Below are positions 3,313 through 37,460 of a DNA stretch of 38,867 bases, piece after piece. Source of the stretch: an uncultured Pseudomonadota bacterium (GTDB lineage Bacteria; Pseudomonadota; Alphaproteobacteria; Rs-D84). The position numbers and the translations under genes are program-made. The stretch spans positions 1 through 38,867 of the forward strand of contig CACYHY010000007.1 of assembly GCA_902774305.1 (NCBI GenBank). Reading direction: 5' to 3'. Within the stretch, counting starts at the first letter, position 1, and every line of letters starts with the position of its first letter. Under the pieces are notes generated by a model that saw only the letters and a list, made by a program, of their open reading frames with translations, was not told the DNA's origin and searched no databases.

Positions 3313-5766
3313 ATGGCAAAGATAGTTCAAAAATATCAGGATTTTATCTTTGAATTTGTCAAAACTGCGCATTTGCAGCAGATGCCAGCCGATGTAAAAA
3401 AACGTTTTGATAAATATTCTCAAAATGCCGATTTTGTCGGTAATATGAAAAACTGGAACGCAGAAAAAGACAGAGAAATTGAATTCGATGCTGCTGTCGC
3501 TGATGCAGAATATAAAAAAGCATACAAAGCATTCTTGGCCGTTTTCGAAAGTATGAGAGAAAACGAAAGTTCCTTGGATAAAAAGGTCAAGGAAGAGATT
3601 CTGGATAAAGTATTCGGTACCAATAAAGTTTTTGATAATCCGAAACCAATTCTGGGTGTAGAAAATGAATTAGATAATTTCAGAACAAAAGTTTTAGATG
3701 CCCCAGGTAATGAAACCCGTTTAACAAACCTTTTCAAAGATTATACCTATGGCGGATATGTATCCCAATTCTTTGATGATGGAAAATTTGATTTCAAAAC
3801 TTTCCGAGACGGTATTGCAAATAAAAAATACGAAAGCGACCCAAAACTGCGTAAACAAGTTTTGGCCGTTATGGACTTTTTTAGAAGTTATGAAAGCGAC
3901 CCAATATTACAACCTATTCTAAACGGATATAAATTTAACACCAATGGATTACCAGATAACACTGCGGAATGGTTTCAATCTGCTTATAATCCTGGGTTCA
4001 AGGCATTATTGCCACAATTATTAACTTCTTTGGTAACAAATAAAAAATTCCGCGAAGAATTCTCAAAATATGATTCTGGCGGTAGTGGCGCTATCAGCAA
4101 AAATGTTACCAAAGGTTTAGAAAAAACTGCCTATGACGATTCAAAAAGCGATGATTTTATTCCTCCGCTTCATCAAGATCAGAAAAGTCTGGGCGAAAGG
4201 TTCAAAGATCAACTCAACAATATCTGGGATAGCAATTTACGTCAATGGACTGATATTTTGCGTGGAACACGCAGATATTTTTCGCCGTATTCTACAGCAA
4301 TTATACAAGCGCTGGATAAAGTTAAAACCAAAGATGGCAAACGTATCAAGCCAACAGATGGTATCAAGGGAATTCTTGAAAATAAAGAAGCTATTCTGAA
4401 ACAGCTTGATGGGACATCTCCCAAAGCAAAAAAGCATTTTGAGTGGTTTACAAAACAAATGGAAACCTACTCTAAAACTATGCCAAAGGCATACGATGGT
4501 GCGTTACGTAATCCGTATAAAATGCGTCGCTTGGTTTCTCAAATGATTGCCGATGCAATCCAAGATGGCAAGAAAGACGAAGCGAAAACTGCTATGGAAA
4601 TTTTATCAACCATGAAATATGGTATTATGCATAGCAGAACAGTCGATGCATTACGCGAAGCCGATTTCACAGTATTGTCTGACAAAGAATTATCTTGGAA
4701 TAAATACGAAGGTATCCAGTTTGTAACCAAGGCTTTGGATAAAACAGCAAAATTTGCTTTGGTTGCCACAGGACGCATTGTCGCAGCAATTCATAATAAA
4801 TGGATGCGTGACCATACTAAATTAAAGGGTAAATTGCGCGATTCTGGTGGTGCACATAAACAATGGAAAAGAAATAATGATCCAAATAGTTTAAATCAAC
4901 CAATTAGCGATATTGATAATTCTTTGGTTACGGCAAATGGTCAATTGTCTGCTGCAGAAACAGCAATGCATAACAACCATTTCGCGGATAGAGCATCACT
5001 GGAAAGTTTTATCAACAACACTATAAATTACAGAGACAATACTCTGATACCAGATTTAGATGCCAAAAGAGCCAATTTAGAAACAGAAAATAATAAATTG
5101 ACCGCAGAAAACCAGAAATTTAACGACCTTAAAACAAAACAGGCAGATTTAAAACAAAAACGCACAGCACAAAGAGCGGATTTGGCTAATTTAAATAAAA
5201 CATTAACACGTCTGAATACAAAGTTAGTGGCAACAACAGATCCTGATGACCAAAAACGCTATAAAGATGCTATATTCCAAAAGCAACAGGAAATTGACGA
5301 TCTTAGGGAGGCAATGAAAGATGTTGCGTCTGAATCGTTCAGAGTTAACAGAAGTTTTACAACACAGAAACAAGCCGTAGCTAACCAACAAAAGGTCGTT
5401 GATAACATACAAAGAACAGTTGATAGACGGCAGAATTCACTTGATCGTGTGAATGACAGAATTCATGATCGTCAGGGCTTATTAAAAGACTATGATGATG
5501 CAGCACAAACTGTTCAATCTTTGAACGATCAGAAAAATGATTTATTAAATCAACAAACTAACTGGAAAGACAATCATCCAGATGAATATGTGGAATTGAT
5601 GGGTTATTGGGATATGTTGGAATCATTCGGCAAATCACACCAGTTTACATTAGCATCACATCGTATGCGCAAAAAATTCTTGAAAGATTATAATAATAAC
5701 AATTCAAAAGCCCAGCATACAGAGGCATTATTCATAGATAAATACGAAAGAAGATATGCGGCTTAA
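3313..5766 (+). CDS. uncharacterised 817-aa cytoplasmic coiled-coil protein
   Basis: I do not recognise this protein. It has no signal peptide or membrane segment. Residues 1-500 are mixed alpha-helical, rich in Lys, Asp and Phe, with repeated FF/F-rich stretches such as VSQFFDDGKFDFKTFRDG. Residues about 535-770 have long heptad-like stretches of Gln, Asn, Lys, Leu and Ala (for example ADLKQKRTAQRADLANLNK) that should form an extended coiled coil. The start is firm, with GGGAGG about 6 bases before the ATG. It stands alone between tRNA-Lys and a shared terminator. Size, coiled coil and lack of catalytic motifs suggest a structural or scaffold role. This is inference only. Confidence 0.85.
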   Translation: MAKIVQKYQDFIFEFVKTAHLQQMPADVKKRFDKYSQNADFVGNMKNWNAEKDREIEFDAAVADAEYKKAYKAFLAVFESMRENESSLDKKVKEEILDKVFGTNKVFDNPKPILGVENELDNFRTKVLDAPGNETRLTNLFKDYTYGGYVSQFFDDGKFDFKTFRDGIANKKYESDPKLRKQVLAVMDFFRSYESDPILQPILNGYKFNTNGLPDNTAEWFQSAYNPGFKALLPQLLTSLVTNKKFREEFSKYDSGGSGAISKNVTKGLEKTAYDDSKSDDFIPPLHQDQKSLGERFKDQLNNIWDSNLRQWTDILRGTRRYFSPYSTAIIQALDKVKTKDGKRIKPTDGIKGILENKEAILKQLDGTSPKAKKHFEWFTKQMETYSKTMPKAYDGALRNPYKMRRLVSQMIADAIQDGKKDEAKTAMEILSTMKYGIMHSRTVDALREADFTVLSDKELSWNKYEGIQFVTKALDKTAKFALVATGRIVAAIHNKWMRDHTKLKGKLRDSGGAHKQWKRNNDPNSLNQPISDIDNSLVTANGQLSAAETAMHNNHFADRASLESFINNTINYRDNTLIPDLDAKRANLETENNKLTAENQKFNDLKTKQADLKQKRTAQRADLANLNKTLTRLNTKLVATTDPDDQKRYKDAIFQKQQEIDDLREAMKDVASESFRVNRSFTTQKQAVANQQKVVDNIQRTVDRRQNSLDRVNDRIHDRQGLLKDYDDAAQTVQSLNDQKNDLLNQQTNWKDNHPDEYVELMGYWDMLESFGKSHQFTLASHRMRKKFLKDYNNNNSKAQHTEALFIDKYERRYAA

Positions 5767-33730: not shown

Positions 33731-33752
33731 AAGGTGCCAAACGGCACCTTTT
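33731..33752. terminator. bidirectional terminator
   Basis: AAGGTGCC (33731-33738) and GGCACCTT (33743-33750) with loop AAAC, A-rich before and T run after. It differs by one loop base from the hairpin at 37754-37773. Confidence 0.88.
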
Positions 33753-34720
33753 TACCTGTCATAGTCAAAATTTGGCAAAATACCTGATATACTTTTGTTG
33801 CATAATTTTGCAAAGATTGGTTTATCCAGACCATATGCTTTTATCAGGGTACTTGGTTTCTGATTACACCATAAATCATTGTATGTAACAACGCCGTTTT
33901 TGATTGTTTTAATCAGGCCACTTGGCAATTCGGCACGCCCGATACACGAAGACAGATAAACAAAACATTCATCGTTGTCGGCCAGATTTTCGCAGGCTAA
34001 GATACGTGCGTATACATTTAGGGTTAAATCTGCCTTGCTAGCATCCTTTGTCCATGGAGACCCACCACCAATCGGCGCAGCAGTAGAATAAAAGTCACAT
34101 GCTAATTTTCGACCTGTAATACCACAATCTGCAACCGAGCCATGATATGTATAACGCCCTGTGCCGTTTACAATAATTTGCGTTGGCTTTTCACCCAATG
34201 TTTCAATGATAAAGTCCGTTAAATCTTCATCTCGCAGCATTGGAATTGCAACAATAGCGGTTTCTATCCGCTCATCATTCAATGTGATTTGCGTTTTAAT
34301 ATCCAGCCCCAAATTATCAGATTGACGTGCCTTTTCATACAGGGCTTTGCCAACAAATACACCTTGGTCACCCCAACCGTCATTATCAACCCCATTGGCG
34401 ATATCAGCAGACTGCACACCAATCATGTTGATAACTTTGATTTCTGTCGGATCAATAGCATACTTGCCCCATATAGATGCATATCGTTCATCATATCCGA
34501 TTTCAGCTAACGCATCTTTCACATATTGATTCAGTTCATTTAAGTTTGCCGTTGTGGTAATTTCGCCACCAAGGACAACTGTATTATCTTTTATCATAAC
34601 CTCAACGGCATATCTGGCGTTTTTGTCTTGTGTGATTATACGGTCAAGTATATAACAGGAAATATAATCAGCTGTTTTATCTGGATGTCCAAGCGACACC
34701 GCTTCTGCTGTTCTTTGCAT
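33752..34720 (-). CDS. metK: shortened S-adenosylmethionine synthetase homologue
   Basis: SAM synthetase makes S-adenosylmethionine from methionine and ATP. Recognisable motifs are VSLGHPDKTADYIS (ATP and Mg binding His/Asp; E. coli has SEGHPDK), VVLGGEITT, NDGWGDQGVF (GDQG), NGTGRYTYHGSVADCGITGR (E. coli NPTGRF...DCGLTGRK), and GGGSPWTKDASKAD with the Lys-Asp of the active site. The protein is 322 aa against about 384 usually, missing segments in the middle and end. The core residues remain, so it may work, or be a specialised paralogue. AAAGGAG precedes the ATG but is buried in a predicted hairpin. It is a single gene with its own leader. Confidence 0.85.
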   Translation of the reverse strand: MQRTAEAVSLGHPDKTADYISCYILDRIITQDKNARYAVEVMIKDNTVVLGGEITTTANLNELNQYVKDALAEIGYDERYASIWGKYAIDPTEIKVINMIGVQSADIANGVDNDGWGDQGVFVGKALYEKARQSDNLGLDIKTQITLNDERIETAIVAIPMLRDEDLTDFIIETLGEKPTQIIVNGTGRYTYHGSVADCGITGRKLACDFYSTAAPIGGGSPWTKDASKADLTLNVYARILACENLADNDECFVYLSSCIGRAELPSGLIKTIKNGVVTYNDLWCNQKPSTLIKAYGLDKPIFAKLCNKSISGILPNFDYDR

Positions 34721-34726
34721 AATTTA

Positions 34727-34814
34727 CTCCTTTGGTTTTTGCAAATTGAACCAAAGGTGGATTGCAGTGTTGCACCACGCATAATAATCGTTAAAAAACG
34801 GGAAAATCCACCTT
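34727..34814 (-). promoter_or_regulatory. structured leader of the SAM synthetase homologue (riboswitch candidate)
   Basis: In the transcript a perfect 10-bp stem, AAGGTGGATT (34814-34805) with AATCCACCTT (34763-34754), encloses a 41-nt loop. A second perfect 9-bp stem, CCTTTGGTT (RNA from 34757-34749) with AACCAAAGG (34737-34729), contains the ribosome-binding site AAAGGAG. The two stems share four bases (34754-34757), so they compete and may switch translation. Whether it binds SAM is not known, and I do not see a clear match to a named SAM class. Confidence 0.55.
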
Positions 34815-34818
34815 GATT

Positions 34819-34853
34819 AGTGTGTATTATAACACACTACATAAACACTTCAA
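34819..34853 (-). promoter_or_regulatory. promoter and palindromic operator of the SAM synthetase homologue
   Basis: Minus-strand TTGAAG (34853-34848) and perfect TATAAT (34831-34826) are 16 bp apart. The -10 box is the exact centre of a palindrome, AGTGTGT-N6-ACACACT (34819-34838), the arrangement of a repressor operator that blocks the promoter. Confidence 0.65.
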
Positions 34854-34903
34854 TAAAAATTATATAGTTCGAGTCCAGTTATCCCTATTTTATTTAAAAT
34901 GTA

Positions 34904-34940: not shown

Positions 34941-37460
34941 ATGGATATAGAGGAATATAACATTTTTATTAAAGATAAAGATGTCACACAGGATGTCTTT
35001 TTAGTTGAACCAGACGGTCAACAGATAAATGTTATGTTCAAAAATGGTCGTTCTTATTCGTACAACAGAAACAACGTCAGATTTGTTCCTAAAAATCAAG
35101 ATGAGATAGATGCCAAGAATAACTTTAAGTATCTACAAAGTCTGGCCGAAGCAGTTGGCTTAAGTAATGAACATGGTCAAAATATATTGTTAAAGAACCT
35201 TAATCGCATTGATGCATCAAACAAGGAATCTGTTTTGTACGATTTTTTATCAGGTACAGCAACAGAAAACGATAATTATATAGAAGATAATCCTGTATAC
35301 CCATTCGGATTTAATTTGAGTCAAAGACAAGCTGTGGATAACGCGATATCCAACAGATTATCCATTATTCAAGGTCCGCCAGGAACAGGAAAAACACAAA
35401 CTATTTTGAATATAATTGCAAATATTGTAATGGCAGGTAAGACAGTCGCTGTCGTTTCAGCTAATAATTCTGCAACTGCCAATGTATTAGAAAAATTACA
35501 GAAATATCAATTGGATTTTTTGGCTGCTTTTTTAGGAAGCAACGCTAATATCGAAGCTTTTAATTCAAGTGATCATAAATTACCAGATATGTCAAAATGG
35601 CATAAAGATAACAGATGGTTAAAAACAACTAATAAAAAGATCGCTGATTTACATAAAAATTTGTTAATAATGTTAGAAGAGCAAAATCGTCTGGCACAAA
35701 ACAAAGCAGAAAACGACAGTCTAAATACAGAATACCAACATTTTGCTCTTGAACACCCTAATGTCGATACAGGTATTATATCGCATTTGTCTGCGGAAAA
35801 AGCTATAGGATTGTGGTTAAAATATGAACAATATTTATCTGCTAACCGTAAGCCTAACTTTATAGAAAGAATTGTGATGTACTTTAAGTACAAAATTAAA
35901 GATAAGGCATTTTTATTTAACAAACCAGAAGAAATCATAACTATTTGTCAGGCACATTGGTATAAGCAAAAATTATATCAGTTAAAACAAGATATAACCA
36001 GAGCAGAACATAAGTTATCTAAGTTTAATTTTGAAAATAAAATTAAAACATATACAGATTTATCCATGCAGTTGGTAAAATCTAAATTAGCAACAAAGTA
36101 TGGCAAAACAACCAGAGAAAATAATATCGTATTAAATAAAGATTTTCTTAAATCTTATCCTGTAATTTTAAGTACAACTTATTCTTTAACAAATTGTTTG
36201 TTTGATGGTCTTTATGATTATGTTATTATAGACGAAGCCTCACAAGTGGATTTGGTTACCGGTGCACTAGCTCTTGGTTGTGCAACCAATGCTGTAATTG
36301 TTGGGGATTTAAAACAATTACCAAATGTTGTAGACGAACAATCTGCAAATATAACAGATGCTATTTTCGATAAATTTAATATTAATGAAATTTATAGATA
36401 TAAAAATCACAGCATATTATCGGCTATCTCTAAAATGTTTCCAGAAGCACCATCTGTTATGTTGCGAGAACATTATAGATGCCACCCAAAAATTATTGAA
36501 TTTTGCAATCAACGTTTTTATAAAGGTCAACTTATCACTTTAAGTAATAACAAATCTAAACGAGAACCATTGATTGTTTACAAAACCAAACCAGGTAACC
36601 ACGCTAGGAATCACGTAAACAACCGTCAAATAGATGTAATAATTGACGAAGTAATTCCACAACAAAAACTTGATGTAAATAAAGATTCCATTGGTATTGT
36701 TACCCCATATAGGAATCAGGTCGCTGCTTTGCAAAAAATGTTCAACGATACAGCAGTTCAAGCGGATACAGTAGATAAATTTCAAGGACGAGAGAAAGAC
36801 ATTATTATTTTATCTATGGTTGACAATAATATCTCGGATTTTGCAGACCAGCCAAACAGATTGAATGTTGCTGTATCTCGTGCGATTAATCAGTTAATAA
36901 TTGTTACAAATGGTAATGAAGAAAAAACAGATACGAATATTCAATCTTTAATAGATTATATAAATTACAATAATTTAACTATTGTAAATAGTGATATTGG
37001 TTCCATATTCGACTGTTTGTATAAGTGTTATGAGGAAAACAGACAAAAAATGATAAAATCACATGTGTCTGAATTTGATAGCGAAAACCTGATGTATGAT
37101 TTAATAAAATCTGTACTGAACGGTGAACGTTTCAACGTTTTTGATGTTGCCTTACATGTACCATTAAAAACAATATTTAAGAATTTAACTCGATTATCAG
37201 GTGAAGAATACGAATATGCTAACAATATAATGACTCATTGCGATTTTATAATATATGATCGAGTTACAAAGAAACCAGTTTTGGGTATAGAGGTAGACGG
37301 TACAAAATATCATGGTGAAAATTCAAAACAACATGAACGAGATGTTATGAAAAATAATATATTTGCTACCTATAATATGCCTCTCATTCGTTTTAGAACC
37401 GATGGCAGTCAAGAAAAAGCAAAGTTGATTAAAGCATTATCAACTATTCTTGAAACCTAA
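34941..37460 (+). CDS. UPF1/DNA2-type superfamily 1 helicase with C-terminal nuclease domain
   Basis: An 839-aa fusion. The helicase has GPPGTGKTQTI (Walker A) near residue 145, VIIDEASQVD (motif II) near 430, VGDLKQLPNV (motif III), LREHYRCHP (motif IV region), DKFQGREKDI (motif V) near 615 and NVAVSRA (motif VI) near 645. A long helical insertion covers about residues 210-390. The C-terminal part (about 760-835, CDFIIYDRVTKKPVLGIEVD followed by GTKYHGENSKQHERDVMKN) is a PD-(D/E)XK-like nuclease of the DUF2726/DUF559 sort. Such stand-alone fusions occur in phage defence and DNA repair. It is a lone gene with its own promoter in an accessory region. ATG 34941 is preferred over a TTG at 34917. 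Confidence 0.87.
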   Translation: MDIEEYNIFIKDKDVTQDVFLVEPDGQQINVMFKNGRSYSYNRNNVRFVPKNQDEIDAKNNFKYLQSLAEAVGLSNEHGQNILLKNLNRIDASNKESVLYDFLSGTATENDNYIEDNPVYPFGFNLSQRQAVDNAISNRLSIIQGPPGTGKTQTILNIIANIVMAGKTVAVVSANNSATANVLEKLQKYQLDFLAAFLGSNANIEAFNSSDHKLPDMSKWHKDNRWLKTTNKKIADLHKNLLIMLEEQNRLAQNKAENDSLNTEYQHFALEHPNVDTGIISHLSAEKAIGLWLKYEQYLSANRKPNFIERIVMYFKYKIKDKAFLFNKPEEIITICQAHWYKQKLYQLKQDITRAEHKLSKFNFENKIKTYTDLSMQLVKSKLATKYGKTTRENNIVLNKDFLKSYPVILSTTYSLTNCLFDGLYDYVIIDEASQVDLVTGALALGCATNAVIVGDLKQLPNVVDEQSANITDAIFDKFNINEIYRYKNHSILSAISKMFPEAPSVMLREHYRCHPKIIEFCNQRFYKGQLITLSNNKSKREPLIVYKTKPGNHARNHVNNRQIDVIIDEVIPQQKLDVNKDSIGIVTPYRNQVAALQKMFNDTAVQADTVDKFQGREKDIIILSMVDNNISDFADQPNRLNVAVSRAINQLIIVTNGNEEKTDTNIQSLIDYINYNNLTIVNSDIGSIFDCLYKCYEENRQKMIKSHVSEFDSENLMYDLIKSVLNGERFNVFDVALHVPLKTIFKNLTRLSGEEYEYANNIMTHCDFIIYDRVTKKPVLGIEVDGTKYHGENSKQHERDVMKNNIFATYNMPLIRFRTDGSQEKAKLIKALSTILET

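Follow-up and report, generated by a model that had tools for sequence, protein, structure and literature searches.

Does the leader of a phage-type SAM synthetase gene (metK) in an uncultured alphaproteobacterium form a riboswitch and, if so, which part of it would sense the ligand? The gene lies in the window, the whole 38,867-nt stretch of contig CACYHY010000007.1 analysed here, which belongs to a 943-kb MAG in 66 contigs. A preliminary description of this DNA had claimed two competing helices in the leader, read them as a translational riboswitch with a 41-nt loop as possible sensor and a variant or new class as its type, and proposed an Rfam search with the SAM models and a collection of homologous leaders. 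The elements concerned are listed below (SD, Shine-Dalgarno sequence; L013, a related locus in genome G128).

33752-34720, minus strand: phage-type MetK homologue, 322 aa (Pfam N and C domains, phrog_1569)
34636-34782, minus strand: leader-ORF remnant with an internal ATG and no SD, in the same frame as in L013 (sequence)
34727-34733, minus strand: metK SD (SD2), AAAGGAG (sequence)
34729-34737, minus strand: 3' arm of the sequestor hairpin, AACCAAAGG (sequence, ViennaRNA, conservation)
34749-34757, minus strand: anti-SD, which is the 5' arm of the sequestor hairpin, CCTTTGGTT (sequence, ViennaRNA, conservation)
34754-34763, minus strand: 3' arm of the antisequestor, AATCCACCTT (sequence, ViennaRNA, conservation)
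34804-34805, minus strand: deletion junction, 58 nt of L013 missing, ATTT on both sides (L013 alignment)
34805-34814, minus strand: 5' arm of the antisequestor, AAGGTGGATT (sequence, conservation)
34826-34831, minus strand: -10 box, TATAAT (sequence)
34848-34853, minus strand: -35-like box, TTGAAG, with a 16-nt spacer to the -10 box (sequence)
34868-34880, plus strand: 13-nt fragment of the tRNA-Asn 3' end (T arm), TTCGAGTCCAGTT (sequence)

Two competing helices over the metK ribosome-binding site

The gene proved to be a SAM synthetase homologue, as first described, carrying both the N and C Pfam domains of MetK. Its product matched phrog_1569 at 1.9e-71 (phage type) and was 65% identical to a SAM synthetase on a faecal phage contig and, among the matches listed, about 33-37% identical to those of Streptococcus and Helicobacter phages. 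Both claimed helices were found exactly where they had been placed. On the minus strand, 34814-34805 pair with 34763-34754 in a perfect 10-bp stem closing a 41-nt loop, and 34757-34749 pair with 34737-34729 in a perfect 9-bp hairpin with an 11-nt loop, inside which the metK SD sits. The four bases 34754-34757 are common to both, so the helices are mutually exclusive. From the position of the -10 box, the RNA would start about 5 nt ahead of the first arm. According to ViennaRNA, which ignores pseudoknots, the two alternative folds of the window leader differ by 0.5 kcal/mol (-29.8 vs -29.3), a gap that ranged from 0.3 to 2.2 kcal/mol across five leaders including this one, and the antisequestor was slightly dominant, with a pair probability of 0.83 vs 0.20 for the sequestor.

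Perfect 10-bp inverted repeats are common in the window (33 vs 6.8 in shuffles), and chance stems were therefore ruled out by the conservation of the helices in relatives and not by the rarity of such a repeat. In 38 long leaders of related metK genes, pairing was retained in 377 of 380 cells for the 10-bp arm and in 341 of 342 for the 9-bp hairpin, counts which overstate independence because the leaders share ancestry. The three changes in the 10-bp arm were all wobble-compatible and the arm was otherwise nearly invariant, so that the support for it is that of conservation plus these three changes rather than of strong covariation. Among 183 family genomes (species representatives), 52 encoded a MetK of the window type and 33 contained the exact sequestor pattern, which when read backwards occurred in 0/183. 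Those relatives that have names are MAGs of Alphaproteobacteria from the gut and rumen, one being Candidatus Enterousia excrementavium.

The window leader and its intact relatives

Across the leader and the initial part of metK, L013 and the window have nearly identical sequences, save for gaps. One of these is a 58-nt block, missing from the window, which in L013 comprises the aptamer core, the SD of the aptamer (SD1) and the start codon (AUG1) of a leader ORF; other relatives likewise carry a GGAUUUAACCUGACUUGUCCUACCUCUAAAUGGACUAAACAAGGAG-like sequence between the arms, followed by an AUG. R1, a model built from 37 aptamers, had no match anywhere in the window (E up to 1), and elsewhere in the same genome it matched only contig C34, which carries an intact second metK copy. 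Since L013 keeps the block and the C34 copy is intact, the window leader is very probably what a deletion of the sensor has left of a SAM-II/SAM-V-like translational switch, namely its expression platform. The link to a translational switch thus stands, in the sense of a remnant platform whose intact relatives keep the aptamer, and the proposed role of the 41-nt loop falls: the L013 comparison identifies the loop as the junction left by the deletion. That the leader is instead complete, a switch of a new class in which this loop is the sensor, would accord with two mutually exclusive helices over the metK ribosome-binding site, but we consider it scarcely credible given the origin of the loop and the other, longer sequence, including a recognisable aptamer, that relatives have in its place.

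The deletion was seen in one MAG contig, and as the MAG is split into 66 contigs and includes another metK copy, an artefact of assembly, binning or strain mixture might be suspected, the true genome having an intact leader. However, the corresponding leader of that copy differs (81% identity where alignable), short repeats of the kind frequent in natural deletions flank the gap, and the same gene holds a second, in-frame deletion, which together make an artefact distinctly improbable. This second gap, of 60 nt, removes from the window MetK the 20 residues YACQGECKINRELYLARKLN that follow GDQGVFVG in L013, and the enzyme may be impaired by it. Up to this gap the two metK genes are near-identical, and beyond it their identity falls, as after recombination.

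The aptamer and its relation to SAM-V and SAM-II

The aptamers of the intact relatives form an H-type pseudoknot of two helices, P1 and P2. There, AAGGTGGATT also supplies the 5' strand of P1 and the beginning of the third strand of the aptamer. P1 covaries, with G-C, U-A and C-G variants, and in three sequences U-A replaces C-G at one P2 pair; variation in P2 is under-sampled in the metK set because the search pattern required GUCC/GGAC. Pair counts, with two-sided changes in P1 and in one P2 pair, exceeded those of all slid versions of the structure. R1 matched 59 of the 183 family genomes. Apart from aptamers of its own kind, it scored best on the SAM-V aptamer of L207, in register and weakly (13 bits), and the next two matches, also in register, were to SAM-II-like sequences that closely precede the SAM-V sites in L212 and L207; all of these cross-class matches are weak, from 13 to 6 bits. 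The UUU, UUG and CUAAA motifs conserved in the A2 aptamers aligned in register with L207, and the stretch from UUU to P2 had the same length as there. In the SAM-V structure 6FZ0, UUU, UUG and U47-A48-A49 contact or frame SAM (PMC6061858), and the positions so numbered are retained in the intact aptamers.

The proposed Rfam search yielded no strong match to a known class. At gathering and permissive thresholds only tRNAs and chance matches were returned; the SAM-II and SAM-V models matched none of 20 loci (E up to 0.5) and nothing in the leader stretches of L075 and L002 (E up to 10). In class-wide searches, SAM-II (RF00521) was matched in 65 of 142 class genomes and the genome of the window had no match to either SAM-II or SAM-V (RF01826). 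Moreover, the P3 stem-loop that follows P1 is absent from the aptamers of A2 and A3, in which the linker is too short for it. Despite the missing P3 and the silence of Rfam, the in-register R1 matches and the retained contacts suggest that the aptamer belongs to the SAM-II/SAM-V superfamily, being neither family itself. The earlier alternative of a variant or a new class is thereby narrowed: a variant outside the Rfam models stands, and a wholly new class does not, as the aptamer aligns with SAM-V and, more weakly, with SAM-II. SAM is probably the ligand of the intact switch.

With SAM-V (RF01826; 6FZ0, PMC6061858) the aptamer shares the H-type pseudoknot, a third strand with UUU, UUG before P2, the U47-A48-A49 equivalent after P2 and an SD directly behind the aptamer, and differs from it in lacking P3, in having GUCC/GGAC rather than GUGC/GCAC as P2, in standing ahead of metK and in going unscored by the Rfam model. 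With SAM-II (RF00521) it has in common the fold type, GAUUU, CUUG, CUAAA..GG and an unpaired linker after P1; unlike SAM-II, it is without the further 3' pairing element, the SAM-II sequence signature and an Rfam match. In the literature, within a coverage that mostly left out subscription papers, no report was found of this aptamer on phage metK.

The aptamer also precedes an uncharacterised protein family of about 145-193 aa with a G-[ST]-x-LSG motif (L243, L244, L246-L249, L251-L253 and L257-L260), for which there was no Pfam or NCBIfam match and one weak PHROG match, and which was not found in viral contigs. In L256, a variant (556-609) lies upstream of a 394-aa protein with a sub-threshold Pfam match to S-AdoMet lyase (E 0.04). 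Weak variants with a longer insert occur at L197:2343-2406 and L203:2341-2405, followed by an SD and a short ORF before metK, and an apparently decayed copy at L255:2071-2124 has no gene of the known kinds directly behind it. Related metK genes without the aptamer (L186, L187, L189, L193, L199-L202, L268 and L271) have another kind of leader upstream, in which terminator-like hairpins separate a TATAAT box from the SD.

Leader ORF, proposed mechanism and phage setting

Intact aptamers carry their own SD (SD1, AAGGAG), and two layouts were found. In the compact one, this SD lies 8-13 nt from the metK start; in the long one, it lies 76-131 nt away and would serve a leader ORF whose AUG is about 7-11 nt past the aptamer (L005, whose ORF begins at GUG, was assigned manually). 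The leader ORF was open to the metK SD region in 36 of 36 distinct long leaders, of which 29 and 27 contained stops in the other two frames. Shuffling of nine dissimilar representatives gave a product of about 8e-5 for this openness, a value that shared ancestry makes a guide rather than a probability. Relative to metK, the leader ORF occupies all three frames (19, 15 and 4 leaders), a spread that agrees better with ribosomes passing through the hairpin than with conservation of a peptide. In L056 (G099) it is in frame and fused to metK, and AUG1 would there yield an N-terminally extended MetK. Most of the 36 intact long leaders have a -10-like hexamer 10-12 nt before the first arm, and transcripts starting from it would carry the aptamer at their 5' end.

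We propose that in intact leaders the aptamer stands at the start of the RNA. When SAM is bound, the P1 helix and the P2 pseudoknot would form and cover SD1, leaving AAUCCACCUUUGGUU available as the anti-SD to mask SD2. Without SAM, AAGGUGGAUU would pair with AAUCCACCUU as the antisequestor, dismantling the aptamer, opening SD1, occupying the anti-SD and opening SD2; ribosomes on the leader ORF would also traverse the metK SD region. A simpler scheme would confine regulation to direct occlusion of SD1 and translation of the leader ORF, the 10-bp arm being no regulatory antisequestor. The openness of the ORF in every distinct leader is consistent with it, as are the compact relatives, which use only the aptamer and the SD close to metK, but the 10-bp complement is present in 38/38 long leaders despite three leader-ORF frames, and we hold this scheme to be rather unlikely, though a serious contender. 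Under the two-stage scheme, the helices of the window copy would compete without ligand input because the aptamer core, SD1 and AUG1 are lost, and as no aptamer remains and the antisequestor is slightly dominant in the calculation, the window metK is probably expressed without SAM control.

Two published systems offer parallels. The SAM-II switch of S. meliloti metA needs its own SD for a start 74 nt downstream (PMC9373788), a dependence of downstream translation on the aptamer SD that is also predicted here. In metA, however, AUG1 and AUG2 share a reading frame and a terminator separates them, whereas here most leader ORFs overrun the metK start out of frame and a hairpin with the ribosome-binding site precedes metK. 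In M. tuberculosis, translation of a uORF in the ppe2 B12 riboswitch is essential for its gene (PMC11260477); a riboswitch-controlled leader ORF ahead of the regulated gene is common to both, while the ligand and aptamer differ and the coupling, experimental there, is inferred here.

The compact aptamer and metK were found together on three viral contigs (L263, L264 and L265). By Pfam, the other genes of L265 include those for a terminase, a lambda-type portal and a ParB-like DNA methyltransferase, and L264 has terminase and methyltransferase proteins similar to these. Contig C34 has a DNA methylase gene near metK, and a methyltransferase relative was present in 14 of the 80 cellular loci fetched. 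Beside the window metK, the tRNA-Asn fragment at 34868-34880 is possibly an attachment-site scar; longer fragments lie beside L013 and L032, and L003 has a full tRNA-Asn. In L131, L157 and L274, metK is flanked on one side by tRNA-Asn and on the other by a repeat of the 22-nt 3' end of this tRNA, an arrangement resembling a small integrated cassette (repeats at L131:315-336 and 3720-3741, and at L157:2032-2053 and 4667-4688). The divergent neighbour in the window (34944-37460) is a helicase with AAA_11/AAA_12 and DUF2726 domains, which resembles antiphage helicase models in part and below the cutoff.

Taken as a whole, the picture that we somewhat favour is that of a SAM-II/SAM-V-superfamily variant, absent from Rfam, on a mobile phage-type metK of gut Alphaproteobacteria and their phages, two-stage in one lineage (aptamer SD, leader ORF, and antisequestor and sequestor over the metK SD), of which the window would be a natural aptamer-loss mutant. 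It would widen the superfamily by a form without P3, undetected by current models, and would place this form on phage-type SAM synthetase genes which, on phage contigs, lie near a SAM-requiring DNA methyltransferase. The natural pair of intact L013 or L002 and the window would offer a test of how the signal passes to the downstream start, and would probe how leader-ORF translation and the antisequestor relay it from the ligand.
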